In this document: positions 1,614 through 43,721 of the stretch, piece by piece
Numbering within the stretch: position 1 is the stretch's first letter
Layout: every line of letters begins with the position of its first letter
Origin: Tumebacillus sp. BK434
GTDB lineage: Bacteria; Bacillota; Bacilli; Tumebacillales; Tumebacillaceae
Assembly: GCF_004340785.1 (NCBI RefSeq)
Contig: NZ_SLXS01000003.1
Location: 157,689-221,688, forward strand
Length of the DNA: 64,000 nt
Reading direction: 5' to 3'
The notes under the pieces: model-generated
The model's database searches: none
The model's input: the letters and a program-made list of their open reading frames with translations, nothing else
Told to the model about the DNA's origin: nothing
Program-made: the position numbers and the translations under genes

Positions 1614-1630
1614 TCCCGGTGCCTAGCAAC

Positions 1631-1665
1631 AAAGACCAACGCGCTCTGACGCGTTGGTCTTTTTC
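1631..1665. terminator. bidirectional rho-independent terminator
   Basis: A 13-bp stem (AAAGACCAACGCG and its complement) with a 6-nt loop, flanked by T on the right and A on the left. It separates the convergent small gene (1314) and the multicopper oxidase gene. Confidence 0.88.
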
Positions 1666-1671
1666 TAGGTT

Positions 1672-3279: not shown

Positions 3280-3418
3280 CCTGAAGCCTCCATTTCCCGT
3301 GATCTTCTGCCTCTAGCATATCCGGCAATTGTGTTGAAATCGTGTACATTTCGGTCATGCAGCACGAAAAGATACCGTATACATAAAGCACTTCTCACGG
3401 TGAAGGGGGACACAACGT

Positions 3419-3577
3419 ATGGTCATTCCCAAGATCATCATCCAACTCTGCCTGATGCTCGTGATCGCCCGCTGCGGCTATGTCGGTTTCCAACTGATCA
3501 ATCACGCCAAGAAAAAATGGCTGGAGATCCTGTTCCACTTCGCCGTCGCCATCATCGCGCTCGACATTCTCTTATAA
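3419..3577 (+). CDS. 52-residue membrane protein
   Basis: ATG behind GGTGAAGGGGGA and closed by TAA at 3577. The product begins MVIPKIIIQLCLMLVIARCG and has two hydrophobic stretches (about residues 4-17 and 38-52) with a Lys-rich centre (HAKKKWLEI), so it is probably a two-helix membrane protein. Function unknown. It sits alone between the oxidase and the histidine kinase and ends just before a strong terminator, which supports it being a real transcription unit. Confidence 0.6.
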   Translation: MVIPKIIIQLCLMLVIARCGYVGFQLINHAKKKWLEILFHFAVAIIALDILL

Positions 3578-3585
3578 ACACAGAA

Positions 3586-3623
3586 AATGCCGAATCCAAC
3601 TGCGCGGATTCGGCATTATTTCC
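3586..3623. terminator. bidirectional terminator
   Basis: The 12-bp stem AATGCCGAATCC / GGATTCGGCATT separates the small membrane protein gene from the convergent histidine kinase gene. Confidence 0.85.
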
Positions 3624-3636
3624 CCGGAAATCTTCT

Positions 3637-5046
3637 TCATTCGACAGACGAACGACTCGAAGCCAAGGGCACAGTGAAGAAAAACGACGTGCCCTTGCCC
3701 GCTTCGCTCCCCACCCAGATCTGGCCGCCATGGCGGTCGATGATCCCTTTCACGATTGACAAACCCAAGCCCATCCCGCCATTCGCCCGGTTGCGGGATT
3801 TGTCGACCCGGTAAAAGCGGTCAAACACATGCGGCAGATCCCGGGCCGGAATGCCGATGCCCGTATCCTGTACCCGCACTCGCAGATCGTCCCCGTCCGC
3901 CTCATACTGCACCCGGACAAGCCCGCCCTGCGGCGTGTACTGGATGGCGTTGGTCAGCAGATTGAACAGCACCTGCTCCAGCCGGTCCGGATCACCGATC
4001 ACAAAAAGCGCTCCTTGCTGCCCCCGTTCGATCCGCAACTCAATCCCTTTTTCCTGGGCGGCCGGCACGAGCTTGGCATACGCCTCCCGGACCACTTTTT
4101 GAAAATCTGTGCGGATCAGCACCACCTTCATCCCTTCCCCTTGCGCTCCGGACAGGTCGGTCAACTCACTGACCAGCCGCTGCAGGCGCTGCGATTCGCG
4201 GACGATCAGGGCGAGGTATTTCTGGCGCTCCGCTTCGTCCTGCACCCAATTCTCCGCCAAGACCTGACTGTAGCCTTGGATATAGGACAGCGGCGTGCGC
4301 AGCTCATGCGTCACGTCGGCCAGAAATTCCTGCTGCTGCTCCTCATGATGCTGCAGACGGCTGGCCAACTCGTTGATCGACTGGGCCAGTTGCCCGACTT
4401 CATCCTCCCCGCTGGCCACCACCCGCGCTTCGTAGTTGCGGTTGGCGAGCGAGCGAGTGACGTCTTTCATCTTCAAGAGCGGCGCGACCATCTGCCCGGC
4501 CATCGTATAGAGCAGCCAGCCGGCCAGCACCAACGCACCCGCCGACAGCGTGGTGATCATCACGCGAAACTTGTCCACCGCCGCATGGACCGGCTCCATC
4601 GAAGCGAACAGCAGCAAGGCGCCGTGAATCTCTCCTGCCGTCCCATGAATCGGCCGGGCGGTGAAATAAAACAGCTCCTCTTGCCCGGACGGAGCCTGCC
4701 TGCTGTTGCCCACGGCGCCGCGCAGCACGTTTTGCACCATCTCCCGTCCGAGCAGGTCCTGCGTCGTCAAGGAGGACAGCGTGGAGATCACCACCTGCCC
4801 GTCTGCGTCGAGCAGCAGGTAGTCGCGAATCGACACTTCACTCAGCGACTGGATGATGCTTTGCAGATGGTGCTGCCGATCATCATCGGGCAGTTGGCTG
4901 AGCTTGTCGCTCTCCTCGTTCAGTTCATCGATCAAATGTTCCATATACAGGTCGCGCACCTGCTGATCGACCAGCAGCGTCAGCGGGATCAGCACGGCCA
5001 AAAAGATGGCGAACTGCATCAGCATCACTTTGTAGCGGATGTTCAT
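3637..5046 (-). CDS. sensor histidine kinase
   Basis: A 469-residue membrane kinase. TM1 is about residues 10-27, an extracytoplasmic sensor region runs ~28-165, TM2 is ~168-190, and a HAMP linker follows. The HisKA box is DVTHELRTPLSYIQGY (phospho-His in HELRTP), and the ATPase domain shows the N box (NLLTNAIQYTP), DTGIGIP and GLGLSIVKGI. Its ATG overlaps the stop of the response regulator by 4 nt (ATGA), so the two are translationally coupled. The periplasmic sensor resembles no family I recognise. Nearby cadCA and oxidase genes suggest a metal or envelope signal, but nothing proves it. Confidence 0.95.
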   Translation of the reverse strand: MNIRYKVMLMQFAIFLAVLIPLTLLVDQQVRDLYMEHLIDELNEESDKLSQLPDDDRQHHLQSIIQSLSEVSIRDYLLLDADGQVVISTLSSLTTQDLLGREMVQNVLRGAVGNSRQAPSGQEELFYFTARPIHGTAGEIHGALLLFASMEPVHAAVDKFRVMITTLSAGALVLAGWLLYTMAGQMVAPLLKMKDVTRSLANRNYEARVVASGEDEVGQLAQSINELASRLQHHEEQQQEFLADVTHELRTPLSYIQGYSQVLAENWVQDEAERQKYLALIVRESQRLQRLVSELTDLSGAQGEGMKVVLIRTDFQKVVREAYAKLVPAAQEKGIELRIERGQQGALFVIGDPDRLEQVLFNLLTNAIQYTPQGGLVRVQYEADGDDLRVRVQDTGIGIPARDLPHVFDRFYRVDKSRNRANGGMGLGLSIVKGIIDRHGGQIWVGSEAGKGTSFFFTVPLASSRSSVE

Positions 5047-30357: not shown

Positions 30358-31626
30358 CTATCCTTGAAGACTCGAGGAGTGCGTGGTGTTTGTTTTCGAA
30401 TATTGGTATACCGCAATCATTTGGACAATCGCGGTAACGGCCAGTCCCACCGACGCAATCCAATACGCACCATGAAGGCCGAAGAGATGAAGAAACCCCC
30501 CTGAAATGACAGTTCCAAGAGGAAGGATCCCACCGACTACTGTTGTCAACATGCCGATAACACGCCCGTGCAGTTTGCTCGGAACGATTTTTTGCAAAAT
30601 AGTAAAAAAGAAATTGCCGGCTACTGCACTTCCAAGTCCCATAACAAACAAAAGCAGCATGTTGACATAGAGATTTGTTATCGCCGGGTAGAGCACAATG
30701 ACGATTTGAAGTCCTGAGAAAAGCACAAATCCTTGTTCAAGCGAAATCTTTTTGCTCACCCAACTCGACAGTATGTAACCTGCTACTGCACCGGCACCGA
30801 TCGATAATTCGAGCAAGCTGTATCCTCTGGCTCCTGCATGCAAAACAACATCAGACCAAGCGGCCGCAAGAATCATATACGGGATATACAGCACATTCTC
30901 TAAAATGAAGATGGGAATGAGCAAACGCAGAATTTTTAATTCCCAAGTGAATCGAAATCCTTGTACCAAGCTGTTCCACCAGCTCAACTGTTCATTCGTT
31001 GACCCATCATGCGGATCGGTCGAAGCGGAGGAATCATCGGCAGCTCTATTTCTCAAGATGGCAAACAGCGTCAATAAAGACAGCAAAATGAGAAAACTGT
31101 AGAATCCGAAAATTACAGATACCGGAACAAAACTAAGCAATACGGCGCAAGTGGATGCGGCGATGACACCGGCAAACCGTCTCACGCCCTGAATGAGCCC
31201 ATTCCCTGAAGCCCAATCAGACTCGGGCAAGATCTCAGGCACTAACGCTTGTGAAGCAGGTGAGGAAAGATTCCCAATTACGTTCATCAACAGATAGAGA
31301 CTCGCAATCACCCAAAAATTACCACCCTTTACCCCTACATAAATCGCAAGGATCAACACTAAGAGAAAGCGGATCGACTCAAAACGTATCATCACTTTCA
31401 AACGGTCTCCACGATCCGCGATCACACCGCCAAAAACGCTGATCAGTTGGGGAATCGACATCATGAGCCCTAACCAGAGCAAATACTGTGGATCATTGGT
31501 GCTGTCTTGTACAAACCAATACAAAGCAAATGCAAATAAGTTCATTCCGATTGCGGTTCCCGACTGACCAAGAAATAGAAAACGGAAATTGCGATGAAGC
31601 AGTGCACTTTTAATAACAATCACCAC
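30358..31626 (-). CDS. MFS exporter of the RiPP locus
   Basis: A 422-residue permease of the MFS_3/EntS-like group: FRFLFLGQSGTAIGMNLFAFALYWF, then FGGVIADRGDRLKVMIRFESIRFLLV and LSSPASQALVPEIL. Such transporters often export siderophores, macrolides or peptides. It is last after the precursor, radical SAM and LanB genes and has its own promoter. Base composition is clearly AT-richer than the genes on either side, like the whole locus. The start is uncertain: GTG at 31626 or 31623, both with a weak Shine-Dalgarno. Export of, or immunity to, the RiPP is inferred. Confidence 0.88.
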   Translation of the reverse strand: MVIVIKSALLHRNFRFLFLGQSGTAIGMNLFAFALYWFVQDSTNDPQYLLWLGLMMSIPQLISVFGGVIADRGDRLKVMIRFESIRFLLVLILAIYVGVKGGNFWVIASLYLLMNVIGNLSSPASQALVPEILPESDWASGNGLIQGVRRFAGVIAASTCAVLLSFVPVSVIFGFYSFLILLSLLTLFAILRNRAADDSSASTDPHDGSTNEQLSWWNSLVQGFRFTWELKILRLLIPIFILENVLYIPYMILAAAWSDVVLHAGARGYSLLELSIGAGAVAGYILSSWVSKKISLEQGFVLFSGLQIVIVLYPAITNLYVNMLLLFVMGLGSAVAGNFFFTILQKIVPSKLHGRVIGMLTTVVGGILPLGTVISGGFLHLFGLHGAYWIASVGLAVTAIVQMIAVYQYSKTNTTHSSSLQG

Positions 31627-31684
31627 CGTTCAAAAGGTTATTTTCATGTGTTTCATATTTTTAACACCGTAACCAGATACTCGC

Positions 31685-31714
31685 ATTATACTCATTCTAC
31701 ATCCAGTTTTTCAA
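31685..31714 (-). promoter_or_regulatory. promoter for the RiPP-locus MFS exporter
   Basis: Minus-strand TTGAAA, 18-nt spacer, TATAAT, placed between the end of lanB and the exporter start. It suggests that the exporter is also expressed independently of the biosynthetic genes. Confidence 0.65.
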
Positions 31715-31717
31715 CAT

Positions 31718-34700
31718 TTATCCCTGGCGTAAGGTTAGTTCTCGCAAAACTCTAAGCGCAAGAGCCAACAATTGCGCTTCTTTATCCCCACCGCCAATGA
31801 GCCTATTGATATGCAAATGCAGAAACGTCTCCGCCACGCGCTCAAGAAATGTTTCATTTCCTAGCCGAACAATGACCTTCCGATAATCAAAAATCTTGTT
31901 TCGGCGCTCCTCCATGATCCTCGCGATTTCCCCATGAATCCAATCTTCTTTCTCTTCTGCAAGCCGTATCAGTTGACTTCTTTTTTTGGCATATCCTTCG
32001 CGAGACGGTTTCATGGTAACAATCGATTCTAACCAACTCAATTGATCATTCCTGTCCGGAAAGAAGCACGTCATCATGTCCAAAACGGAGAAGACTCCCA
32101 AAGTCTCAAGATCAGCAGATTTACTATTCTTTGAAGAGAAGTCATGCAGAAAAACAGCAAGTCGGCTATCAGCTGCAAAGATTTTTTCAGCAGATTCAAC
32201 CGCCTCGAGTCCCCCGAAACGTTCAATTTCGCGTTCATAGGTGTCATACGACAGACGAAGCAATATCCCCTTTTGTTGCAGCGTGGATGCCCACTGAGCA
32301 AGGAGGGGGATGAGTTGATGGACCAGCAGTGAAGACTGACCATGGAATCGGAGACGAAGATGAGGTTCGGGTTCATCGAAACGAATGTAGTAAAACTCTT
32401 CGAACAATGCTTTGCTGAGGGCTTGTTCGCAAAATGCTTTTAGGTGTTTCCTCAGAAATTCATTCTGCTGACGATGCGGAATATAGAGCTTTGCGTAAAG
32501 CCACTCACTGCCTGTGAAAAAGGTTCTGTCTTTGATCTCACAGTCCGGCAGATATGTGCCCCACCTCAACTCCCTTGCTTCGGTCACGGCAGCAGCATCT
32601 GCTTTTTTTAGAAATGGAAAAACAAATTCGGTTGCATGACGCCCAACAGGCCCCTGACACCAAGACCCTTGCGGATCATAACAACATTCGGTCAAGGTGA
32701 GATACTGATGTTCTGTAAGTTTGTTGAACGCGTTCTGCAAAAGAGCGAAGTGGAGCTCATTATCCAAATCAAGCATCATCCGCTGATCTTCCTCAACAAG
32801 ATAGAGATAACGAGGTACCTTCCATTCCTCTCTCCAAGTTTGAAGATTCGAGAACTTTGACAGCCTCCATTGGGCCGGGGCGATCACGATCCTTTTGTAT
32901 CGGAGGCGTGGCAGGAATGGCGCCTGTTTCATATTCCCCCAATTCATGGGTTCCCACTGTTTAGATCGTTCGGTTGCTAGTTCCAACAGAAATCGATACA
33001 CATTTGGCACACCCACCAGATTCAACATGTGGTTGGTAACAGGAATTACTTCCCGATTGAGTGATCTTGATTTCAGGTAGAAAAATTCACCTGTACAACC
33101 GACCAGCAAATCTTCTAATGAAATCACGCGTTGATCCTGGTCCGAATGAAAGACACCTAACAGGATCTGGAAATCCCTTGAAGCCTGTGTAATGGTTAAG
33201 TTGGCATCGCGGTCTGTACATGGGAGAAAGATTACCTCGGCAAATATTGCTTCTGGCCGATGTGACTGTTCGGCCTGATGAATTTGCAGAAACTGTTCTT
33301 GCAAATTCAATTGTTCCGTCAGACTGAATCGCCCGAAACTTTTCCCCGCACCAAAAGAGCCGCTGTTTTCATTCAGCCATATCAAATAATCTCCACTGTT
33401 CAACGCTTCGACAGACTGCGCTTCAACAGAAGCATACAATTCCATGGAAAGCGGTGAGTGTGCAAACTTTGGCGGTACAGATTCAAGATTCGCTAATGTA
33501 TCGTCAGTGAGTTCGACTTCCAACTGCCGTTTTGCCACAGCCTGCATCGCCAAAGTCGTTACATACGTCTCCCGCATCCGGGATTGAGTTGCTGGCTTGG
33601 GATCGTATTCGCGATGGCCGGCAGGAAATTTGTAGAGTGCAGGAGAACCTAACCCCACCTCATCGTCCAGCAATTCTAGCAATGGCACTTCACGATCTCG
33701 ACCATATCGCTCCAAAAAATCATTTCGAAACCCTTGGAGATGCGGATTGCCAACCTGTCGGCAGGACAATCTCCAGATGATCTCGGCCGCGGCCTCCAGT
33801 TCTTTTTTGATCGATCCCGGCAGAGCGACCTCACATCCGTTTAACATGACATCCACTTGCAAAGGATGCTTCACATCTGCGAGGTCTTTCATCGATTTGC
33901 TTAGTTCCAAATATGTTGCTGTTCCTGTTCCCATTGGAATGTGATGATAGCTGGCAAGATCTCTGGAGACTGCCGCAAGCTTTTCCGTAATCTCGTCAAT
34001 CCCTTCGAGCGATACCAAAAGGTCCATCAAACGTGTGAACGGATGCTTGTTCGACAGTGAAGAACGCAATTCTGAGATCAAATATTCACGTTGAAGAAGA
34101 TCCTCTAGAAATCTGCGGACTTCCTTAAGATTGGCTTGTGTAAAACGGGCAGCTATTCGTTCCGTTAATGTTTCAAACGCGATCGGCTCTCCAGCTTCTT
34201 GTAGCGCAAATTCAACAGTTTGAGAACGATGCAGAGAACTTCTCATCAATGCGTGATGTTGCTCAGCTCTGCCGTACCTGTTCACATAGGGGAGTCTGAT
34301 CTTATTCCCCGCTAGATAGACGGCCGGGTTTGTTTGCACTCGTAATTGACGAATCAGTTCCGGCCGCGATTCAAGTTCCCTGATCAATCTCAATGTCCAT
34401 TCCATATCCGGCCTGGCATGCTTCTGATAAGAATCGAGCTGGGAGAACTGGAAAGCAGCCTGTTCCCTGTATCCGCCAACAGCGACCCCGGCAAACAGCC
34501 CATAGGGAGTGGGGCGTGTCGTCATCCTGATCAGATATCGAAGCAGGCTGTTTTCAATCTGGCTTCTTTTTCGGGGCTTGATTTCTTGTGATAGGCAGGA
34601 TAGAGAGTCATATAGTGAAGGACTTGCTGCGGCCAGCGCCTCGAGAACCGGTTTCTCTTCGAATGCACGATAAAGGTCCGCTGCCTTAACCGTATTCTCC

Positions 34701-34789
34701 CATACTTCTACTGGGAAAACGTTTGCCCGCACCAAATAAAAATCAGCAAGTCCGTATCGTCCGGCATTCCCCCAAGAAGTCTCGTTCAT
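31718..34789 (-). CDS. class I lantibiotic dehydratase (LanB), full length
   Basis: A 1023-residue enzyme with both parts of LanB. The N-terminal glutamyl-tRNA-dependent glutamylation domain (~1-740) shows RYLIRMTTRPTPYGLFAGVAVGGY. The C-terminal elimination (SpaB_C/thiopeptide-type) domain (~755-1015) shows EFYYIRFDEPEPHLRLRFHG and FLHLHINRLIGG. It should dehydrate Ser/Thr of the precursor to Dha/Dhb. GGAGG 11 nt upstream lies in the end of the radical SAM gene, whose stop is 6 nt away. No LanC cyclase or LanP protease gene follows. The gene is AT-rich relative to its surroundings, consistent with horizontal transfer. Confidence 0.95.
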   Translation of the reverse strand: MNETSWGNAGRYGLADFYLVRANVFPVEVWENTVKAADLYRAFEEKPVLEALAAASPSLYDSLSCLSQEIKPRKRSQIENSLLRYLIRMTTRPTPYGLFAGVAVGGYREQAAFQFSQLDSYQKHARPDMEWTLRLIRELESRPELIRQLRVQTNPAVYLAGNKIRLPYVNRYGRAEQHHALMRSSLHRSQTVEFALQEAGEPIAFETLTERIAARFTQANLKEVRRFLEDLLQREYLISELRSSLSNKHPFTRLMDLLVSLEGIDEITEKLAAVSRDLASYHHIPMGTGTATYLELSKSMKDLADVKHPLQVDVMLNGCEVALPGSIKKELEAAAEIIWRLSCRQVGNPHLQGFRNDFLERYGRDREVPLLELLDDEVGLGSPALYKFPAGHREYDPKPATQSRMRETYVTTLAMQAVAKRQLEVELTDDTLANLESVPPKFAHSPLSMELYASVEAQSVEALNSGDYLIWLNENSGSFGAGKSFGRFSLTEQLNLQEQFLQIHQAEQSHRPEAIFAEVIFLPCTDRDANLTITQASRDFQILLGVFHSDQDQRVISLEDLLVGCTGEFFYLKSRSLNREVIPVTNHMLNLVGVPNVYRFLLELATERSKQWEPMNWGNMKQAPFLPRLRYKRIVIAPAQWRLSKFSNLQTWREEWKVPRYLYLVEEDQRMMLDLDNELHFALLQNAFNKLTEHQYLTLTECCYDPQGSWCQGPVGRHATEFVFPFLKKADAAAVTEARELRWGTYLPDCEIKDRTFFTGSEWLYAKLYIPHRQQNEFLRKHLKAFCEQALSKALFEEFYYIRFDEPEPHLRLRFHGQSSLLVHQLIPLLAQWASTLQQKGILLRLSYDTYEREIERFGGLEAVESAEKIFAADSRLAVFLHDFSSKNSKSADLETLGVFSVLDMMTCFFPDRNDQLSWLESIVTMKPSREGYAKKRSQLIRLAEEKEDWIHGEIARIMEERRNKIFDYRKVIVRLGNETFLERVAETFLHLHINRLIGGGDKEAQLLALALRVLRELTLRQG

Positions 34790-34795
34790 ATGACG

Positions 34796-36160
34796 TTACG
34801 CCTCCGTTTTATGAAAAGTGGCTTGACGGTATCGCAAGCTCACATAATCTTCGAGTTTGCTTTTCAGCGGAGGACAGGGCCGAGCGCTTTCCTGTTCAAT
34901 CCGCACCAGTGGGCAGTATGCGCCATGGCAGATCGGGTGCAATTTGCACGATTGACACACTTTGTCGGAAAGTCCGTCCACCGACACCCACTGACTAAAC
35001 TTCATCTGATCAAGCTCCAACACACCGTCTGCATGCAGTTGCCCGACTTGATTGACCGGATTATTAAAAGCGACTGTACACTTGTAGATCATACCGTCAG
35101 AACCGATGACTAGAGAATTCGGTTTCGCTGCGTAACAGACGTTGTGATTTAGCAATGCATCCGAATACTTCTCTGAGTGAAGTCCCTGTTCGAGCCCGTA
35201 CCATGTTTCTTCCAATGCGATCAGGTTTGCATCTTTTGCTGTGCAAACAGGCAGGACTTCATCATTTTTACCGCCCCATTTCCCAACCGCATGCAAGTCA
35301 AATGTAAAGCGTGCGTCTGTTCCAAACGTCGTGACCAATTCATCCAGAAACACTCTGATATTCGGGGCATTTTCACTGGTAAAATTCATACGAATTTTGA
35401 TTTGTACGTCCAAATCAGAATCTCGGATGGAGATCAGGTTCGTCATGATTTGTTGATACGTGCCTTGCCCTCCCATTAAAATCCTGGTCTGGTCATGATA
35501 TTCTTCCGTACCGTCCACTGTAATTTGATACTTTGATACTCCCAGTTCAAACAATCTGCGAGCGCGATCGACCGTCAGCAAATATCCGTTTGTCGTCATG
35601 GTACCTAGAAAAGCTACACCGTTTGCAGTACAAATGTCATACAGTTTTTGGGATACATTCTCCACGACATCATACGCAACCAACGGCTCTCCCCCAAACC
35701 AACCTACCGTTAGAAAATCCCACTTCTCGATATTTCGTTGCACCCACTGAACCAAACTGCTTTGCAACTCTTCAGACATTTTCCCTTTCAAAAATTCCTC
35801 GTAGCAGTAAACACAGCGAAAGTTGCACTGCTCCGTAGGCATGATGATCAGTTGCTGTGAGGTTCCTTTATTGAACAACTCCTGATACTCGTGGCGGGTA
35901 TAGGCCAGCTCATTCAGATAACTCGGAACCAGAAATCCCAAATCAAATAATTTGGCGTGAGTATCCTGCAACGGGACGGCTGATTCGTAGTGATTTTGCA
36001 AGGCTGTAAAAGAAGCCGGTGACGTGATCATCTTGCCCGATGCGGTATTGTAGAGTAGGAACTTCCCTTTCGTATAATCATTCGGTTGGATTTCCACGTT
36101 ATACATCGACCACTTCACCTGATCCAAAATTGTCGTGCTTACTGCTTGGTTTTTGAGCAT
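34796..36160 (-). CDS. SPASM-domain radical SAM peptide maturase
   Basis: A 454-residue enzyme starting at ATG 36160 (MLKNQAV) behind AGAAGGGGTG; the longer open frame reads back through the precursor region and is not used. Residues 1-100 look like the N-terminal peptide-binding region of such maturases. The radical SAM cluster motif is EQCNFRCVYCYEEF (~115), with GEPLVAY-type GGE motif (WFGGEPLV). The C-terminal SPASM region has KCTVAFNN, VCQSCKLHPICHGAYCPL and a final CPP, enough Cys for auxiliary clusters. Enzymes of this type form thioethers or carbon-carbon crosslinks on RiPP precursors. It is between the precursor gene and lanB. Confidence 0.93.
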   Translation of the reverse strand: MLKNQAVSTTILDQVKWSMYNVEIQPNDYTKGKFLLYNTASGKMITSPASFTALQNHYESAVPLQDTHAKLFDLGFLVPSYLNELAYTRHEYQELFNKGTSQQLIIMPTEQCNFRCVYCYEEFLKGKMSEELQSSLVQWVQRNIEKWDFLTVGWFGGEPLVAYDVVENVSQKLYDICTANGVAFLGTMTTNGYLLTVDRARRLFELGVSKYQITVDGTEEYHDQTRILMGGQGTYQQIMTNLISIRDSDLDVQIKIRMNFTSENAPNIRVFLDELVTTFGTDARFTFDLHAVGKWGGKNDEVLPVCTAKDANLIALEETWYGLEQGLHSEKYSDALLNHNVCYAAKPNSLVIGSDGMIYKCTVAFNNPVNQVGQLHADGVLELDQMKFSQWVSVDGLSDKVCQSCKLHPICHGAYCPLVRIEQESARPCPPLKSKLEDYVSLRYRQATFHKTEA

Positions 36161-36196
36161 AGGTGCACCCCTTCTAATAGTCTTGTAAAGAGGAGA

Positions 36197-36225
36197 GGGG
36201 CCGGAAGTTACACTTCCAAGCCCCC
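36197..36225 (-). terminator. hairpin between precursor and maturase genes
   Basis: Stem with GGAAGT / ACTTCC at the loop and GGGGC / GCCCC at the base, located in the 79-nt gap after the precursor stop. Such attenuators let the short precursor gene be transcribed more than the enzyme genes. No strong T-run follows, so it would be a partial terminator or an mRNA stabiliser. Confidence 0.55.
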
Positions 36226-36239
36226 AAAAATTCATAGAA

Positions 36240-36341
36240 TCAACCGCACCCGCAGTTATTGATCGTGTTGGTTTTGTTTCGATCAGCCGGGATCTCGTTG
36301 ATCTCTTCGACTTCTTCAAATACAACGAATTGCGCCTCCAT
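36240..36341 (-). CDS. RiPP precursor peptide (33 residues) ending NCGCG
   Basis: ATG at 36341 with GAAGGAGGGAG upstream. The leader part MEAQFVVFEEVEEINEIPAD is acidic, and the last 12 residues are NKTNTINNCGCG. Thr24 and Thr26 could be dehydrated by the LanB, and Cys30 and Cys32 could form (methyl)lanthionine, sactionine or other thioether bonds with them or with neighbours. It is the first gene of the operon, directly before the SPASM maturase and LanB, which is the normal place for a RiPP precursor. Its size and the two-Cys tail differ from known lantibiotics. The core boundary is inferred. Confidence 0.85.
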   Translation of the reverse strand: MEAQFVVFEEVEEINEIPADRNKTNTINNCGCG

Positions 36342-37085: not shown

Positions 37086-38348
37086 TTACACCGCCTGCGT
37101 CTCTTCTGCCAACCGGTTGCTTTCCAACTTCCCTTTCAGCCACAGCATCAGCCCGGCGGCCGACACCACGCAGATCGCGGCCAGCATCCAGCCGCCGATC
37201 GCGCTGGGAATGAAGCCGCCGATCGCCGAGAACAGCGGGAGCGAGATCCCGTAGGCCAAACGCGACATCGACAGCCAGGTCGCGACGACGCGGCCGCGCA
37301 GCTCCGGCTTGGAGTAGGTCATCAGCGAGGTCTCGGTGATCACGTTGACCTTCGACTGGAAAATGTTCGCGAGCAGCATCACCGCGAAGAACAGATACCA
37401 GTTGTGGATGATAAACATACAGCCAAGACCGATCCCGTAGAGCATGTTCGACGGGAAGTAGATCTTGAAATACGAGCTGTCATCAAACTTGCGTTTCTTA
37501 AAGTACTGTTTGAGCAGGAAGGCCCCGATTACATACGCCACCGCCGTCACCGAATAGCCGATCCCGACGCCGGCATCGCCCGCTTTCAACTCATTGAGCA
37601 CATACAGCGGGAAGAGGATGTAGATGAAGCCGAGGCAAAAATCGCGGAAGAACTGCAGCCAGAAAACGCCGACCAGCTGCGGGCATTTTTTCACAAAATC
37701 GATGCCTTCTTTCACCTGCTTCAGGTACGGCGGGCGCACCACCGCTGGCTTAGCGAGCGGCTGATACTTGATCAGCGCAATGAAAACCGCCGACACCACA
37801 TAGGAGAACGCATCGAAATACAGGATGTTCACCGCTCCGATCCACTGTGCCAAAAACCCGCCCAAAGCGCTCGCCAGCACCATCGTGGTCGAGTTGAGCA
37901 GCGCGAACGACGAAGTCGCCGCGATCAGGTTCTGCTCTTTGAGAATCTCCGGGATCATCGACGTTCTCGCCGGCTGAAACGCTGCCGACGCAAACGCGCC
38001 AAACGCGATGCAGACGTAGATCACCCAGATGTTTTCGATCATCACCCCGGCGATGATCCCAAGCGTCGAGAACACGCGCAGGATGTCAATCCAGATCATC
38101 AGGTGCTTCTTGTTCCAGCGGTCGACGAACGGACCCATGACGATGCCGCCGAACAGCACCGGCAGGACGCTGGCGATAAACAGGCCGCCGATCGAAGCCG
38201 CATGGGGCACGATCGCATAGATGACGGAGATCAGCGCGATCGTTTTAAACCAGTCGCCAAACAGCGAAATCATCTGTCCGAAATAAAGCATGGTAAAATT
38301 GCGGTTTTTAAACGGAGACGGCAATTTCTCCGCAGTCGCAGTGGACAT
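37086..38348 (-). CDS. MFS exporter of Trp-peptide unit 1
   Basis: A 420-residue MFS_3/EntS-like permease: FKNRNFTMLYFGQMISLFGDWFKTIALISV, MGPFVDRWNKKHLMIWIDILR, AAFQPARTSMIPEIL and GRVVATWLSMSRLAYGISLPLFS. It is a close paralogue of the unit-3 MFS at 42046 (same motif at nearly every loop). It follows the unit-1 HemN-like gene by ~90 nt, with a hairpin in between. AAAGGGGGG precedes the ATG. The repeated pairing with peptide and radical SAM genes suggests it exports the modified peptide. Confidence 0.9.
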   Translation of the reverse strand: MSTATAEKLPSPFKNRNFTMLYFGQMISLFGDWFKTIALISVIYAIVPHAASIGGLFIASVLPVLFGGIVMGPFVDRWNKKHLMIWIDILRVFSTLGIIAGVMIENIWVIYVCIAFGAFASAAFQPARTSMIPEILKEQNLIAATSSFALLNSTTMVLASALGGFLAQWIGAVNILYFDAFSYVVSAVFIALIKYQPLAKPAVVRPPYLKQVKEGIDFVKKCPQLVGVFWLQFFRDFCLGFIYILFPLYVLNELKAGDAGVGIGYSVTAVAYVIGAFLLKQYFKKRKFDDSSYFKIYFPSNMLYGIGLGCMFIIHNWYLFFAVMLLANIFQSKVNVITETSLMTYSKPELRGRVVATWLSMSRLAYGISLPLFSAIGGFIPSAIGGWMLAAICVVSAAGLMLWLKGKLESNRLAEETQAV

Positions 38349-38397
38349 GTCCAGCCCCCCTTTTCCCCAAGCCTGACGGGATCAGCAACAAGCAAAG

Positions 38398-38431
38398 ACC
38401 AGCATGAAGCATCGGGCATCTTCATGCTGGT
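38398..38431 (-). terminator. hairpin between HemN-like gene and MFS gene (unit 1)
   Basis: An 11-bp perfect stem ACCAGCATGAA / TTCATGCTGGT with a 12-nt loop, followed by CTTTGCTTG, so it is probably a leaky terminator. A hairpin is found at the same place in unit 3. Confidence 0.6.
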
Positions 38432-38437
38432 AAACGC

Positions 38438-39799
38438 TTATTGGATGATCGCAAGCTCGGTGTTTTCGTAGAAGTCTTTGTCCTTTTGCATCACGTCGAC
38501 ATAGGCGTCGTACGTTTTCTTCTGCGCTTCCGGCAGCAGGTCGATCATGACGTGCATGTACCAGATCTTGCCGAGCTCGGTCAGCTTCAGCAAACCGTCT
38601 TCGCGCACGACCAGCCCCATTTTTTCGTGCTTCTCGATCTTCTCCCAGTACTCGGACGGCAGGTCGTGCTGACGCAGGTACTCGAGGCTGACTTTCATAT
38701 GTTTCGGGAAGTAGATCAGGCCTTTTTCTTTCGCCTGGTATTCTTTCGCGCGCATGACCGGCAAGGTGCCGTTTTCAACGGCGCGGATGTACTCGTCGGT
38801 CTTCACGCTGTTCATGTGCGACATGCCGCTCAGGTAGGAAGCGGCCGCCTGGCCGCAGCCGATGTATTCGTCTTCGTAGCGGCCGTAGATCGTCGCGCCG
38901 AATTTGAAGTCTTTGTACGCCGCATCGCCTTTGGCAAAGGTGTAGATGTGCGTCTGCTCATAGCCGTGGTTGAGCAGGTAGGAGTTGACGAATTGATGCT
39001 GGAGCACTTTGTCGTCCGCTTTCGGCGGCTCCGGCACTTTGCCGTCTTTGATCATGTTCAGGAAGCCTTTCGAGGTCACAAGGTACTCTAGCGGATAAAC
39101 GTCAACGGTGGTGGTGGACAGCTGACGCACGTTTTCGAGGTCCTCGTGCAGTTGCTCGATCGTCTGGCCCGGCAGTTGATACAGCAGGTCCATGTTGTAC
39201 GCTTTGAAGTACTTGTCGGCGAGGTCGCGGGTGCGCTTGATCTCGTCGAGCGATGCGGTCAGGTTGAACAGTTTGCGGTAGTACGGGTTAAACGTCTGCA
39301 CACCGAAGGAGATCCGGTTGACACCGTTCGCCGCCATCGCTTTCAGTTTGTCTTCCGTAGCGCTCTTCGCTTCGACCTCGAAGCTCCACTCGATGTCGTC
39401 CTTGAGCGTAAAGTTCTCCTGGATCGTCGTGCAGAGATCTTCGATCATCTTCGGGGACAAGACGGAAGGCGTACCGCCGCCGACATAGACTGCATCAAGC
39501 TTCAGCTGCTTGACGTACGGCGTGCTGGCGATGGCTTTCAACTCTTTCAGCAGCGCATCCACGTAAGGCTGCAGTTTGTCTTGGTAGTTCGTGGAGCGGA
39601 TGAACGGACAGAACGTGCAAATCGTGTCACAGAACGGAATGTGGACATAGAGCGATTTCGTTCCGGGCAGCGGCGTGCGCGCCGAGTTCAAAAATTGACG
39701 AACGGTCTCCACCGGTTCCGGCCCTTCTTGAATGAACGGGTAGAGATAGTTCCACATGTTAGGCAGCTTTTTGTAGGGCAATGCGTTATGCTGCGACAT
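38438..39799 (-). CDS. HemN-like radical SAM protein of Trp-peptide unit 1
   Basis: A 453-residue radical SAM protein with a HemN/HemW-type arrangement: YVHIPFCDTICTFCPFIRS (cluster CxxxCxxC, ~60), VYVGGGTPSVLSP, GVNRISFGVQTFNPYYRKLFN, and YNMDLLYQLPGQT. The C-terminal ~90 residues form a HemN_C-like winged helix (YWEKIEKHEKMGLVVREDGLLKLTELG). It is closer to HutW/ChuW and class C radical SAM methylases than to heme-synthesis HemN. It is paralogous to the unit-2 protein at 40296. Three tiny Trp-peptide ORFs lie directly upstream, so they are likely substrates. RBS AAGGGGG is 10 nt before the ATG. Confidence 0.88.
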   Translation of the reverse strand: MSQHNALPYKKLPNMWNYLYPFIQEGPEPVETVRQFLNSARTPLPGTKSLYVHIPFCDTICTFCPFIRSTNYQDKLQPYVDALLKELKAIASTPYVKQLKLDAVYVGGGTPSVLSPKMIEDLCTTIQENFTLKDDIEWSFEVEAKSATEDKLKAMAANGVNRISFGVQTFNPYYRKLFNLTASLDEIKRTRDLADKYFKAYNMDLLYQLPGQTIEQLHEDLENVRQLSTTTVDVYPLEYLVTSKGFLNMIKDGKVPEPPKADDKVLQHQFVNSYLLNHGYEQTHIYTFAKGDAAYKDFKFGATIYGRYEDEYIGCGQAAASYLSGMSHMNSVKTDEYIRAVENGTLPVMRAKEYQAKEKGLIYFPKHMKVSLEYLRQHDLPSEYWEKIEKHEKMGLVVREDGLLKLTELGKIWYMHVMIDLLPEAQKKTYDAYVDVMQKDKDFYENTELAIIQ

Positions 39800-39885
39800 C
39801 TTTGTAAGTACCCCCTTTTCGTGATCAGGGGCTGACAGGGGTCGCCCCCTGTCAGCCGGTATGTGAACTGCCGGGCCCTGCTATG

Positions 39886-39915
39886 TTAAGCAGCTACGAT
39901 GATCCACTCGCGCAT
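39886..39915 (-). CDS. 9-residue Trp peptide MREWIIVAA (unit 1)
   Basis: ATG with GGAGAGGGGGAG 5 nt upstream, closed by TAA after nine codons: MREWIIVAA. The ending WIIVAA is identical to the ending of the 26-residue unit-2 peptide. It is the last of three tiny ORFs before the HemN-like gene (87 nt from its start). Too short for homology proof; the shared motif plus the ribosome site are the support. A regulatory leader peptide remains possible. Confidence 0.65.
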   Translation of the reverse strand: MREWIIVAA

Positions 39916-39978
39916 GGTTGCTCCCCCTCTCCGTCCTTACGGTTCGACGCAGCAAAACGGGATTTGCAGGAAGCCGGA

Positions 39979-40038
39979 TTACGCTTCCACCACAACGACA
40001 GAAATCCACTCCGCTACCGGAAGCCATTTTTGCATCAT
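39979..40038 (-). CDS. 19-residue Trp peptide with two Trp motifs (unit 1)
   Basis: MMQKWLPVAEWISVVVVEA, starting at 40038 or the next Met, with AGAAGGGGG 4-5 nt upstream. It contains two Trp segments (KWLPVAE and WISVVVVEA) spaced like the repeats of the unit-2 peptide. It lies between the 10- and 9-residue ORFs. Proposed substrate of the HemN-like enzyme. Confidence 0.6.
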   Translation of the reverse strand: MMQKWLPVAEWISVVVVEA

Positions 40039-40090
40039 CGGCACCCCCTTCTGGAATCATTTTCGACGCTTTGATGAAACACAGAAGGAA

Positions 40091-40123
40091 CTACTCAGCC
40101 GCGACGACGATCCATTGTTTCAT
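40091..40123 (-). CDS. 10-residue Trp peptide MKQWIVVAAE (unit 1)
   Basis: ATG with GAGGAGGT 7 nt upstream, ending TAG after ten codons: MKQWIVVAAE. The motif W-I-V-V-A-A repeats that of the other peptides. It is the first ORF after the unit-1 promoter (27 nt from the -10 box), so it is well placed for strong expression. Confidence 0.65.
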   Translation of the reverse strand: MKQWIVVAAE

Positions 40124-40149
40124 TCCGCGCACCTCCTCGTTTCGCTTAC

Positions 40150-40177
40150 GTTATATCTCTATTTAAGGGTAAAGCAA
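40150..40177 (-). promoter_or_regulatory. promoter of Trp-peptide unit 1
   Basis: Minus-strand TTGCTT, 16-nt spacer, TATAAC, just upstream of the first peptide ORF and downstream of the unit-2 terminator. Confidence 0.5.
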
Positions 40178-40252
40178 ATTATTACACGCGTTTTCAATGA
40201 TTAACTGAAAATTATTTTGTTTTGTCCACCTAAATGCTTGATGTAAATAAAC

Positions 40253-40282
40253 ATTAAAAAACCGGACTGCACGCAGTCCGGT
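40253..40282 (-). terminator. terminator of Trp-peptide unit 2
   Basis: Minus-strand stem ACCGGACTGC / GCAGTCCGGT followed by TTTTT. It directly follows the unit-2 HemN-like gene, which therefore has no MFS gene of its own. Confidence 0.88.
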
Positions 40283-40295
40283 GGCTTTCTTCTTA

Positions 40296-41660
40296 TTAAG
40301 CAAAGACGATCAGCTCGTCGTCGAACGTAAATTCTGCCCGTTCGTTCAGCGTGGCGGAGATCGTATCGTGCAGGTGTTTCGTGCGCTCCGGCAGCATTTC
40401 GATCATCATGTTCATGTACCACGGCTGGCCTTCGCGGGTCAGCTTGAGCAGATTGCCGTCGCGGACGATCAGGCCTTTTGCTTCAAACTCATCGAGCTTC
40501 TCGTAGTAGCGGGCATCGAGCGCCAAGCGGTCGATGTCGTCGATGTCGATCGACATCCGCTTCGGGAAGTAGATCAGTCCTTTTTCGATCGCGTGGTACT
40601 CATTGACGATATCCGCGCCGAAGCCCGTCTCTTCGACCGCTCGGATGTAAGGTTCCACCTGATCGAAGTTGCGGTAGACGAGGCCGGCCTGATACGAGAA
40701 CGCCGAGAGCCCGGCACCGATGCACTCATCTTCGTAGTGGCCATACAAGGTCTCGCCAAAGACGAAACGCTTGTGCTCCGCATTCTGGCGGATAAACGTA
40801 TAGATGAACTCCTGGCCGTAGCCGTGCTCGATGAGGAAGTTCGTCACCACTTCCTGCTGGGCGACTTTCTCATAGGCGTTCGGCGGTTTCGGCAGGCGTT
40901 CTTTTTTGATCGACTGCAGGAAGCCTTTGGAGGTGATCGTGTAATCGAGCGGGTAGGCGTCGATCGAGGTCGTGTTCAGATCGACCGCATGCTGCAGGTC
41001 TTCCAGAATCTCATCGATCGACTGGCCCGGCAACTGGTACAGCAGGTCCATGTTAAACCCTTTGAAGTACTTCCCGGCCAGTTCGCGGGTGCGCTTGATC
41101 TCGTCGTGCGAGGCGGTCAGGTTAAACATCTTGCGGTATTTCGGATTGAAGGTCTGCACACCGAACGACATCCGGTTGACGCCGATCTCATGCATCGCTT
41201 TCAGTTTGTCTTCGGTCGCGCTTTTCGCCTCGACTTCGAACGTCCACTCGTAGCCTTCTTTCAGCTTGAAGTTGCTGTGGATCGTCTCGCCGATCTGGTG
41301 AATCTGCTCCGGCGAAAGCACGGAAGGCGTGCCGCCGCCGACAAAGATCGCATCGAGCGCAACGCCTTGCATGCGCGGGGTGCCGGCGATCGACTTCAGC
41401 TCTTTGACCAGCGCGTCGACGTACGGCTGAAGCTTGTCCTGATAGTTGGTGGAGCGGACAAACGGGCAGAACGTGCAGATCGTGTCACAGAACGGCACGT
41501 GCATGTACAGCGTCTTCTTGCCACGGTTCGGCGCCGGCTGCTGCAAAAACTGGCGCACATGTTCGACCGACAGCTCGCCGCGCGAAAGATACGGATACAG
41601 GTAGACCCACATCTTCGGCAGGCTGGAAAAAGGCAATTCTTTCGATCCGGAATGGGACAT
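40296..41660 (-). CDS. HemN-like radical SAM protein of Trp-peptide unit 2
   Basis: A 454-residue paralogue of the unit-1 enzyme. It shows the same YMHVPFCDTICTFCPFVRS cluster motif, FVGGGTPSVLSPEQ, GVNRMSFGVQTFNP and FNMDLLYQLPGQS, plus a HemN_C-type end (RYYEKLDEFEAKGLIVRDGNLLKLTREGQPWYM). ATG at 41660 is preferred, with AGAGGAGG 10 nt upstream; the open frame extends 16 codons further without a ribosome site. The 26-residue triple-repeat peptide gene lies 150 nt upstream in the same transcript. Reaction unknown; a C-methylation or crosslink of the Trp repeats is a hypothesis. Confidence 0.88.
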   Translation of the reverse strand: MSHSGSKELPFSSLPKMWVYLYPYLSRGELSVEHVRQFLQQPAPNRGKKTLYMHVPFCDTICTFCPFVRSTNYQDKLQPYVDALVKELKSIAGTPRMQGVALDAIFVGGGTPSVLSPEQIHQIGETIHSNFKLKEGYEWTFEVEAKSATEDKLKAMHEIGVNRMSFGVQTFNPKYRKMFNLTASHDEIKRTRELAGKYFKGFNMDLLYQLPGQSIDEILEDLQHAVDLNTTSIDAYPLDYTITSKGFLQSIKKERLPKPPNAYEKVAQQEVVTNFLIEHGYGQEFIYTFIRQNAEHKRFVFGETLYGHYEDECIGAGLSAFSYQAGLVYRNFDQVEPYIRAVEETGFGADIVNEYHAIEKGLIYFPKRMSIDIDDIDRLALDARYYEKLDEFEAKGLIVRDGNLLKLTREGQPWYMNMMIEMLPERTKHLHDTISATLNERAEFTFDDELIVFA

Positions 41661-41810
41661 GTGGATAACGCCTCCTCTTTTTGAACTTTCTGAAAGTTGT
41701 GTGTTCATGCGTCATGTATGTGATAACTCAATGAGTTCGAACGCCGTTAAGGAAAGACGGAGCGAGAACCGCGGTTCCCCCTCCGTCGACGAGAGATTCG
41801 ATCCCCGCCA

Positions 41811-41891
41811 TTACGCCGCTACGATGATCCAGTTGCGCTCTTGCACAACGATCCAGTTGCGTTCAACCGCAATGATCCAGTTCTTTTCCAT
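41811..41891 (-). CDS. 26-residue peptide with three tandem Trp repeats (unit 2)
   Basis: ATG with GGGAGGTG 7 nt upstream, ending TAA. After MEK the peptide consists of three units: NWIIAVER, NWIVVQER and NWIIVAA. The DNA repeats with a 24-nt period (AACTGGATC each time). A tandem-repeat substrate peptide with one Trp per repeat is what multi-core RiPP precursors look like. It sits under a near-consensus promoter and before the HemN-like gene. Products of nearly the same sequence are encoded in unit 1. Confidence 0.8.
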   Translation of the reverse strand: MEKNWIIAVERNWIVVQERNWIIVAA

Positions 41892-41936
41892 GACTTACAC
41901 CTCCCGTCGTTGATTAATTATTTAATGCTTGAAGTA

Positions 41937-41965
41937 ATTATATTTCTTAGAAACTATCTTTTCAA
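41937..41965 (-). promoter_or_regulatory. near-consensus promoter of Trp-peptide unit 2
   Basis: Minus-strand TTGAAA, exactly 17 nt, TATAAT, located 46 nt upstream of the 26-residue peptide start. It is one of the best sigma-A-type promoters in the window. Confidence 0.78.
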
Positions 41966-41977
41966 TAGTTAGTTTCT
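41949..41977. promoter_or_regulatory. candidate operator over the unit-2 promoter
   Basis: Perfect 8-bp inverted repeat AGAAACTA / TAGTTTCT with a 13-nt centre, straddling the -35 box. Inside it AACTAT / ATAGTT gives a second partial symmetry. It would suit a dimeric regulator, but none is encoded beside it. Confidence 0.5.
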
Positions 41978-42011
41978 ATTTTAATTTTTATCAACAAAGT
42001 TCGACAAAGCA

Positions 42012-42047
42012 AGAAAAGAAAAGAACCCTGATCGAATCAGGGTTCTT
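42012..42047 (-). terminator. terminator of Trp-peptide unit 3
   Basis: Minus-strand stem AAGAACCCTGAT / ATCAGGGTTCTT with a TCG loop, followed by TTCTTTTC. It closes the unit-3 MFS gene. Confidence 0.85.
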
Positions 42048-43311
42048 ACGCTTGCAATGTCGTTTTTTCTTTCATCTGGCTGGTGAGCCTTGCTTTCAGC
42101 CACGGATAGACGCACAAGGCTGAAATCACGCAGACGGCAGTCAAGAGGTAGCCGCCGACAGCGATCGGGATGTAGCCGCCGATCACCGAAAACAGCGGGA
42201 GCGAGATCGCATAGGCCAGGCGCGACGCAGTCAGCCACGAGGCGACGACGCGGCCGCGATTGTCCGCCCGCGAGTAAGTCATCAGCGAGGTTTCGGCGAT
42301 GATGTTGACGCCTTGCGAGAAAATGTAGGTCACGACCAGCGCGACGAGGAACCAGTACCAGCCCGTCATCGAAAACATGACGCCGAGCCCCACGCCGTAG
42401 ATGATGTGGCAGGGCAGGAAAATTTTGAAAAAGGCGCTTTCCTCAAACGGCTTGCTTTTGAAATACCACCTGATCAGCCACGCCCCGATCAGATAGGCCA
42501 CCGCGGTCATCGAATAGCCGATGCCCATGCCGGTATTGCCCGTCTGCACCACTTCGAGGATGAAGACGGCGAACAGGATGTAGACATAGCCGAGCACAAA
42601 GTCACGGGCAGCGGTGATCCAAAAGACGGCGACCAGCTGCGGCGTGGCTCTGACATAGTCATAGCCTTCCTTCACCTGCTGCCAGTACGGCAGGCGCTGC
42701 TTGACCTCTTTTTGCAGCGGCTGGTAGCGCATCAGCCAGATGCAGAAGGCGGCGAACAGATAGGAGAACGCATCGAACAGCATGATCGGGTACGGTCCGA
42801 CCCAATCGGCGACAAAACCGCCCAAAGCGCTGGCGACGACCATCGTCACCGAGTTCAAGATCGCGAACGACGACGTCGCTTTGACGATCTGGTTCTCTTG
42901 CACGATCTCCGGAATCACCGCCGTGCGCGCCGGCTGGAAGGCGGCAGAAATGATGCTGGAGATCACCATCAGGCCGTAGATCACCCAGATGTCCGCCAGA
43001 TAGACGCCCCAGACGATCCCAAGGGTCAGCACGAAGCGCAGCAGGTTGGTCCAGATCATGATCTTCTTTTTGTTCCAGCGGTCGACCAGCGGGCCGACGA
43101 AGATGCTGCCAAACAGCGAAGGCAGAATCGTGGCGATAAACATGCCGCCGACCGTCGAGGCGGAGGGATGCAGATCGTAGAGCACGACGATCATCACCAC
43201 GCCGCGGAACCAGTCGCCAAACAGCGAGACGAGCTGGCCGAGGTAGAGCATCGTATAATTGCGATTGCGGAACAGGGAAGGCTCTTTGGCTACCGCTTTG
43301 GGACTGCTCAT
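42046..43311 (-). CDS. MFS exporter of Trp-peptide unit 3
   Basis: A 421-residue MFS_3/EntS-like permease, paralogue of the unit-1 exporter: FRNRNYTMLYLGQLVSLFGDWFRGVVMIV, VGPLVDRWNKKKIMIW, AAFQPARTAVIPEI, GRVVASWLTASRLAYAISLPLFS. ATG at 43311 with AAAGGAGG 9 nt upstream; the open frame extends 13 codons further. It follows the fused peptide/HemN_C ORF by 68 nt with a hairpin between. Confidence 0.9.
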   Translation of the reverse strand: MSSPKAVAKEPSLFRNRNYTMLYLGQLVSLFGDWFRGVVMIVVLYDLHPSASTVGGMFIATILPSLFGSIFVGPLVDRWNKKKIMIWTNLLRFVLTLGIVWGVYLADIWVIYGLMVISSIISAAFQPARTAVIPEIVQENQIVKATSSFAILNSVTMVVASALGGFVADWVGPYPIMLFDAFSYLFAAFCIWLMRYQPLQKEVKQRLPYWQQVKEGYDYVRATPQLVAVFWITAARDFVLGYVYILFAVFILEVVQTGNTGMGIGYSMTAVAYLIGAWLIRWYFKSKPFEESAFFKIFLPCHIIYGVGLGVMFSMTGWYWFLVALVVTYIFSQGVNIIAETSLMTYSRADNRGRVVASWLTASRLAYAISLPLFSVIGGYIPIAVGGYLLTAVCVISALCVYPWLKARLTSQMKEKTTLQA

Positions 43312-43335
43312 GAGAATTCCTCCTTTATCAGGTAC

Positions 43336-43372
43336 GCGAAAAGCCAGCACACAGGGGGTTCCCGCGTGCTGG
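43336..43372 (-). terminator. hairpin between HemN_C fragment and MFS gene (unit 3)
   Basis: Minus-strand stem CCAGCACGCGGG / CCTGTGTGCTGG (one G-T pair), followed by CTTTTCG. The position and the CCAGCA motif match the unit-1 hairpin, as expected for duplicated units. Confidence 0.6.
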
Positions 43373-43379
43373 ATGCCGC

Positions 43380-43721
43380 TTATGAAAGCATGATCAATTC
43401 GTCGTCAAACGTGAAACCGGTGCGCTCGTCCAGCTTCTCCGTGCCGAGGTCATGCAAGGCGCGTATCCGCTCCGGAAGCATCTCGATCATCATGTTCATG
43501 TACCACGGCTGGCCTTCGCGGATCAGCTTGACCTTGCCGTCTTTCCGCTTGATCAGGCCTTTCGCTTCGAACTCGACGAGCTTCTCGTAGTAGCGCACGT
43601 CGAGCTCTTGGCGGTCGATGTCGGCGATGTCCATCTCCAGCCGTCTGGCGAATGCAGCGGGACTCGTGTCCCCCGATCCGCCCACTTCCCGCGGCTCGAT
43701 AACCCAGGAGTTGCGTTCCAT
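43380..43721 (-). CDS. Trp-peptide start fused to a HemN_C domain (truncated radical SAM gene, unit 3)
   Basis: A 113-residue ORF with GGAGACGGGAG upstream of the ATG. It begins MERNSWVIEPRE, resembling the Trp peptides (ERN-W-I pattern), then a Gly/Ser linker, and from about residue 27 matches the C-terminus of the unit-2 HemN-like protein almost residue for residue (DRQELDVRYYEKLVEFEAKGL; EGQPWYMNMMIEMLPER; FTFDDELI). The cluster-binding catalytic domain is missing. The simplest origin is a deletion that joined a peptide gene to the end of the following radical SAM gene. The intact frame, ribosome site and promoter mean it may still be made, perhaps as a binding or regulatory protein. Confidence 0.75.
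   Translation of the reverse strand: MERNSWVIEPREVGGSGDTSPAAFARRLEMDIADIDRQELDVRYYEKLVEFEAKGLIKRKDGKVKLIREGQPWYMNMMIEMLPERIRALHDLGTEKLDERTGFTFDDELIMLS

Follow-up and report, generated by a model that had tools for sequence, protein, structure and literature searches.

On the minus strand of a 64-kb window of the Tumebacillus sp. BK434 genome (the window being the whole stretch of 64,000 nt that was analysed, from contig NZ_SLXS01000003.1), positions 37086–43721 hold two complete genes for HemN-like radical S-adenosylmethionine (SAM) enzymes, two genes for major facilitator superfamily (MFS) exporters, one remnant open reading frame (ORF) and four unannotated tiny ORFs (table 1). The tiny ORFs encode tryptophan-containing peptides of 9, 10, 19, and 26 residues; they had been proposed in an initial annotation of this DNA and proved to be real, each preceded by a Shine-Dalgarno (SD)-like sequence at normal spacing (GGGAGG, GAGGAGG, AAGGGGG, AGAGGGGGAG). 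The proposed paralogy of the two enzymes, and likewise of the two exporters, was borne out, and each exporter is approximately 55% identical to the orthologue of the other one in G001, a genome of the same genus. The third unit, which had been described as containing a truncated radical-SAM gene, is indeed a single ORF that joins a peptide-like start to an enzyme C-terminus; it has no counterpart between YfmH and MFS 2 in G001 or in a second genome of the genus, G002, and it resembles the decayed remains of a third enzyme unit, specific to this genome (henceforth G000).

Table 1. Features of the locus and of a neighbouring cluster (window coordinates)
Feature	Position	Strand	Remarks
26-aa peptide ORF MEKNWIIAVERNWIVVQERNWIIVAA	41811–41891	-	three NWI units; SD GGGAGGTG; 5' of enzyme 2
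10-aa peptide ORF MKQWIVVAAE	40091–40123	-	SD GAGGAGGTG; 5' of enzyme 1
19-aa peptide ORF MMQKWLPVAEWISVVVVEA	39979–40038	-	two Trp units; SD AAGGGGGTG; 5' of enzyme 1
9-aa peptide ORF MREWIIVAA	39886–39915	-	SD GAGAGGGGGAG; 5' of enzyme 1
HemN-like radical-SAM gene 1	38438–39799	-	Pfam Radical_SAM 5.8e-19; best NCBIfam TIGR04107, below cut-off
HemN-like radical-SAM gene 2	40296–41708	-	paralogue of gene 1, 55% identical
MFS exporter gene 1	37086–38348	-	TIGR00900/EntS-like
MFS exporter gene 2	42046–43350	-	paralogue of MFS 1
Unit 3 remnant	43380–43721	-	peptide-like opening MERNSWVIEPRE, continuing as the ~90 C-terminal residues of a third radical-SAM paralogue
RNA hairpin, last small peptide/enzyme 1	39830–39857	-	sequence conserved in G001 and G002; perfect stem of 12 bp; z -4.9
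Hairpin, enzyme 1/MFS 1	38386–38443	-	24-nt arms, 79% complementary
Hairpin, unit 3/MFS 2	43344–43372
Sigma-70-like promoter TTGAAA-17-TATAAT	41937–41965	-	5' of 26-aa peptide; 11/12 consensus matches
Promoter-like match	43794–43766		5' of unit 3; 9/12
MFS gene, neighbouring cluster	30358–31626	-
Lantibiotic-type dehydratase gene, neighbouring cluster	31718–34789	-	thiopeptide-type C domain
SPASM-type radical-SAM gene, neighbouring cluster	34796–36325	-	nearest TIGR04463
33-aa peptide ORF MEAQFVVFEEVEEINEIPADRNKTNTINNCGCG, neighbouring cluster	36240–36341	-

Enzyme homologues are present in all seven genomes of the host's family that were examined (G000–G002 and, from a sister genus, G003–G006) and in none of seven other genomes of the same order, and Trp peptides are encoded at all ten orthologous or paralogous enzyme loci within the family. 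Orthologues of radical-SAM gene 1 in G001 and G002 are 92–95% identical. Orthologues of the 26-aa peptide are longer in G001 (35 aa) and shorter in G002 (15 aa), with substitutions at third codon positions. In addition to MEKNSWIINVEKNSWIINERNWIVVQERNWIIVAV, G001 encodes MKQWIIIAAE (from a GTG start), MMQKWLPVVEWISVVVVE, and MREWIVVAA as the orthologues of the 10-, 19-, and 9-aa peptides, respectively. G002 encodes MSWIIHERNWIIIEN plus a tandem series of approximately eight mini-ORFs (MIKEWLTVVEA twice, MIKEWLSVGTSDVEF, MIKEWIPVVEL, MKNWLPIGDTKGF, an ORF starting MREWLSIV, MREWILVGVTIE, and MREWIIVAA, the last being the orthologue of the 9-aa peptide). The sister genus retains the enzyme–MFS pair, with enzymes approximately 60–63% identical to enzyme 1. 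The initial annotation had placed the peptides upstream of the enzyme, which holds for the host genus and for the loci outside the family described below but not for the sister genus, where G005 has four peptide ORFs 3' of, and co-oriented with, its MFS gene (MREWIVVVEN, MREWIIVVEN, MREWIVIVEN, and MRKDWLVVV) and the multi-unit peptides of G003 (MNKWIAVEWIAVEPQWISVEPLWLPVVPVEA), G004 (MTREWIAVEPQWIAVELSWISVNEPTWLPVTEL), and G006 (MSKWISVEPLWIAVEPLWIPIDADTV) are encoded convergently on the other strand.

Outside the family, one class-wide search and one search of plasmids yielded four more enzymes at 44–46% identity, encoded in G746, G622, G586, and plasmid pBkBDGP4A of Cytobacillus kochii. At each of these loci one or two Trp mini-ORFs lie directly 5' of the enzyme gene and an MFS gene directly 3' of it; the peptides are MSNEWISVKNEWIAV (twice) in G746, MRQSTEWFTV in G622, MRQVNEWVAL in G586, and MKKEWVALKNEWVAL in C. 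kochii, where the ORF is unannotated in a plasmid gene table that is known to be incomplete. We refer to the close enzyme homologues, defined by at least 44% identity, as subfamily I, of which 14 loci in 11 genomes or plasmids of at least three families were examined. All 14 loci, four of them outside the host's family, carry Trp peptides, and an MFS gene adjoins nearly all of them. The initial annotation had named two observations that would speak against a peptide system, namely HemN-like/MFS pairs elsewhere without peptide ORFs and a motif confined to this genome; instead, the peptides accompany each of these 14 enzymes, and the Trp motif is kept beyond both the genome and the genus. The loci vary from one to approximately eight peptides and from one to four repeats per peptide, and in whether these are placed upstream, downstream, or convergently on the opposite strand. 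Because two of those other families, with 39 and 23 genomes searched, yielded no further close relative, the locus appears to be sporadic outside the host's family; viral contigs that were searched contained no relative. A scan of genome contigs gave mostly generic HemN-like proteins among the matches listed, the best of these at 31% identity, and their loci served as controls rather than as a census. The nearest control loci (Trinickia, Actinocrispum, Streptomyces, and Pseudomonas; L030–L034) showed no Trp peptides, and their neighbours include a gene that, judged by eye, is AdoMet decarboxylase (SpeD)-like.

Over 30 peptides with 52 Trp units, the shared motif is [E/N/K]-W-[I/L/V]-x-V. The residue at position +1 from the Trp is I, L, V, or F in 52 of 52 units and that at +3 is V, I, or L in 48; 50 units have an acidic residue close by, and cysteine and tyrosine do not occur at all. 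The subfamily I peptides have a length of 9–35 aa and are core-like in sequence nearly from their start. Using as criterion an ORF of 7–45 codons with an SD sequence and a match to [DEKNQRS]W[IL]x[VIA], we found five ORFs in the whole window, four of which are the peptide ORFs of this locus. Seven related genomes contributed 12 regions, in which we counted 26 motif ORFs; 500 dinucleotide shuffles gave 0.46 on average and never more than 3. The significance of this difference is overstated because the motif was learned from the tested peptides; the antisense strand of the same regions contains none. A comparison of codons between G000 and G001 revealed that 15 of 20 changes fall at position 3 and that 13 are synonymous versus five non-synonymous, the latter being exchanges among I, V, and A. 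A scan of upstream sequences matched at 11 of 11 loci with upstream peptides (ten from subfamily I and one from Alicyclobacillus) versus 2 of 76 other HemN-like control loci. Matches to a multi-core peptide elsewhere in G000, G001, and G003 were weak (E values of 0.29 to 5.9) and found no support.

The enzymes share the sequence CDT(I/L)CTFC, in which the three cluster cysteines (CxxxCxxC) are invariant. A profile of the family matches HemN (1olt, 8e-50) and NocN (9p2u, 1e-27), one of the few class C radical-SAM methylases characterised so far (PMC12871812). For NocN, stacking of Tyr34 on the second SAM and contacts to it by Arg153, Asp196, and Ser225 have been reported, as has capture by a Glu carboxylate of the methylene formed on the indole (PMC12871812). 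An alignment of 13 of our enzymes has invariant residues matching Tyr34, Arg153, and Asp196, and an invariant Asp at the position of Ser225. The AlphaFold model of enzyme 2 (pLDDT 80, pTM 0.83) has HemN 1olt as its top Foldseek match (TM 0.71); the predicted fold is that of HemN. The top curated family is ChuW/HutW (TIGR04107), with scores of 219.7 and 202.8 bits that fall short of the cut-off of 400; PADLOC returned only a marginal radical-SAM-domain match. In the enzyme tree, which we used for this grouping alone and with the mis-framed row for G722 disregarded, the close homologues cluster separately from a distant branch. This deeper branch (subfamily II) comprises enzymes at 33–36% identity in G003, G005 (two), G006, and G722, all near peptides with a C-terminal Trp, which are either PIIW repeats or approximately 50-aa peptides ending in SEW. 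G005 encodes MENQPIIWKNVEPIIWKNAAEPIIWNNEVAPIIW and MERNILIIW, and at the four other loci the approximately 50-aa peptides end in LLSEW or VVSEW, with a single C-terminal Trp and a leader-like stretch.

The mini-ORFs are conserved, share a motif, are amplified as genes and as internal repeats, and are linked to an enzyme and an exporter, and at all 14 subfamily I loci an encoded putative precursor lies beside a candidate modifying enzyme as is expected for a ribosomally synthesized and post-translationally modified peptide (RiPP). We consider it likely that these loci specify a family of RiPPs without leaders: the HemN-like enzyme would attach a one-carbon unit to Trp, and the product would leave the cell through the MFS protein. 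The tiny ORFs would be translated to peptides of 9–35 residues with one to four [E/N/K]-W-[I/L/V]-x-V units, on which the class C enzyme would act without the need for a leader. By analogy to NosN/NocN, a methylene radical derived from the second SAM may attack an sp2 carbon in the indole ring of Trp and leave behind a methyl group or, if a neighbouring Glu or Asp carboxylate captures it, a methylene bridge; the recurrence of Glu beside Trp makes a NosN-like Trp-CH2-O-Glu bridge a specific idea, and the evidence is compatible with such a bridge, plain methylation, and a direct cross-link alike. The MFS protein would then export the processed peptide or a fragment thereof, likely as a secreted antimicrobial or signal, a role that is the weakest step of this scheme. 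Because peptide genes are duplicated and cores repeated, a set of products is expected rather than one molecule.

Several points weigh against this interpretation. The motif in our statistics was derived from these very peptides, a circularity that weighs less on the codon pattern and on the loci found outside the family. The subfamily I peptides have no identifiable leader (a leader is usual but not universal in RiPPs), and neither a RiPP recognition element nor a protease or immunity gene was recognised. Furthermore, Phe310, Gln311, and Ile329, which are important in HemN, are not conserved in these enzymes, so that the site differs on its substrate side and does not reveal which reaction is catalysed.

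The layout of the host-genus loci invites the alternative that the small ORFs are regulatory leader peptides controlling the enzyme gene by Trp attenuation or translational coupling. Trp-containing ORFs lie directly 5' of the enzyme both there and in Bacilli outside the family, and between the last small ORF and enzyme 1 there is a strong hairpin, which would also suit production of precursor in excess of enzyme. However, in G003–G006 the ORFs lie 3' of the MFS gene or convergently on the opposite strand, and this shift of position is a strong argument against a cis-acting leader-peptide role. Given in addition that the ORFs are multiplied up to approximately eight times, contain internal repeats, and have no match in an Rfam scan (which was empty, as was a tRNA scan), we rejected attenuation on position and multiplicity and regard it as very improbable. 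The initial annotation had assigned each unit its own promoter, which is borne out in part: promoter-like matches lie 5' of the 26-aa peptide and, of poorer quality, 5' of unit 3, but nothing scored 5' of the 10-aa peptide, and the four promoter-like matches in the region are not in excess of the 3.3 found in shuffles. Unit ends carry rho-independent-like terminators, and the hairpin that had been noted between the unit 1 enzyme and its MFS gene was found.

Two further alternatives accept the peptides as gene products and differ in what the enzyme makes. The peptides could be scaffolds, the enzyme modifying the core Trp and proteolysis then freeing a small Trp-derived metabolite for export by the MFS protein; PQQ and 3-thiaglutamate are made on a peptide scaffold. 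Near-identical repeated cores and the identical copies in G002 suggest the dose of one unit over diversity, MFS exporters mostly carry small molecules, and the approximately 50-aa peptides of subfamily II have a single C-terminal Trp. We nevertheless find this unlikely, as conservation is strong at the Trp flanks (I/L/V at +1, V at +3), which would be discarded, and no protease gene is consistently linked. Alternatively, the peptides could be unmodified signals or toxins that are secreted in the manner of short hydrophobic pheromones, with the enzyme acting on another substrate such as a tetrapyrrole. The peptides are hydrophobic, and the top curated enzyme family, although at half its cut-off score, is a haem-degrading radical-SAM methyltransferase; yet no haem genes were seen nearby, no Rgg/RRNPP-type regulator was recognised beside the peptides, and peptide and enzyme occur together in every close homologue, even on a plasmid, leaving this reading with little probability.

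The proposed leaderless RiPP family shares single features with several known systems. Microcin C is made from a tiny leaderless precursor, the heptapeptide MccA, and is exported by the MFS protein MccC, but it is adenylated by MccB, whereas the enzyme here is a radical-SAM protein. Streptide, the triceptides, and other Trp-modifying radical-SAM RiPPs likewise pair a radical-SAM enzyme with a peptide Trp, but their enzymes have SPASM domains and their precursors bear leaders, in contrast to the HemN-like enzyme and the leaderless precursors of our loci. The thiopeptide class C methylases NosN/NocN and TbtI, which act on RiPP substrates, resemble our enzymes in their HemN-like fold, in the profile match to NocN, and in the conserved residues aligned to Tyr34, Arg153, and Asp196; NosN/NocN, however, act on an indolic acid that is attached to a large thiopeptide, whereas our loci pair the enzyme with leaderless 9–35-aa peptides whose Trp is encoded and with an MFS gene of their own. 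ChuW/HutW of anaerobic haem degradation, the nearest curated family by score, differs in its unmatched cut-off, in the haem genes that were not seen here, and in the Trp peptides that were. Biarylitides have minimal precursor genes of 5 codons that escape annotation (PMC13417212), as do those reported here, but are cross-linked by a P450 rather than by a radical-SAM enzyme. In agreement with the initial annotation, we found no description of the combined system in open-licence literature, a survey that could miss subscription papers. Tiny precursors, Trp-modifying radical-SAM RiPPs, and HemN-like enzymes acting on thiopeptides are already known separately; what appears to be new is their combination.

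We lean toward regarding these loci as a new RiPP class, in which leaderless precursors of approximately ten residues per Trp, arranged as tandem mini-genes or internal repeats, are Trp-modified (or given a Trp-CH2-O-Glu bridge) by a dedicated HemN-like class C branch and exported by an MFS protein, with a deeper branch using C-terminal Trp precursors. Such a class would have been missed, since its precursor genes fall below the size that usual gene callers handle and were unannotated in the one annotated record checked; the enzyme together with the Trp motif offers a search handle. If this is correct, a class C branch with encoded leaderless substrates of 9–35 residues would make the chemistry directly testable with synthetic peptides, for which the natural series of one to four units, one to approximately eight genes, and varied flanks is a ready substrate panel.

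A separate RiPP-like cluster precedes the locus in window coordinates (30358–36341, minus strand; table 1). It was set aside as a part of the system because the orthologous loci in G001 and G002 lack such a neighbour. Within the deeper branch, L027 (7814–7966), L028, L029, and L144 (3962–4126) combine an approximately 50-aa SEW peptide and a HemN-like radical-SAM gene with B12-binding radical-SAM genes (two in the loci examined most closely), SBP_bac_5, and MFS, a content that was checked mainly in L027 and L028; these clusters are probably another RiPP family. On plasmid p1 of Alicyclobacillus sp. TC (L148, 5824–9115), a mini-ORF encoding MRDIVWDIVW lies 5' of a 29%-identical HemN-like enzyme gene, and a gene for a 133-aa hypothetical protein lies between enzyme and MFS. 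The deeper branch and the Alicyclobacillus locus extend the theme of a HemN-like radical-SAM enzyme, a Trp peptide, and an MFS protein; that they form a single system with subfamily I is less certain. Two plasmid gene sets in which no Trp mini-ORF was seen, L149 (Klebsiella pneumoniae NZ_CP040995.1, 6001–11003) and L150 (Glaesserella parasuis pD74, 1336–4834), combine a HemN-like radical-SAM enzyme with a cytochrome P450 and an MFS protein, the pD74 set also having a speD gene, and their enzymes are related to those of the Pseudomonas, Trinickia, Actinocrispum, and Streptomyces control loci.

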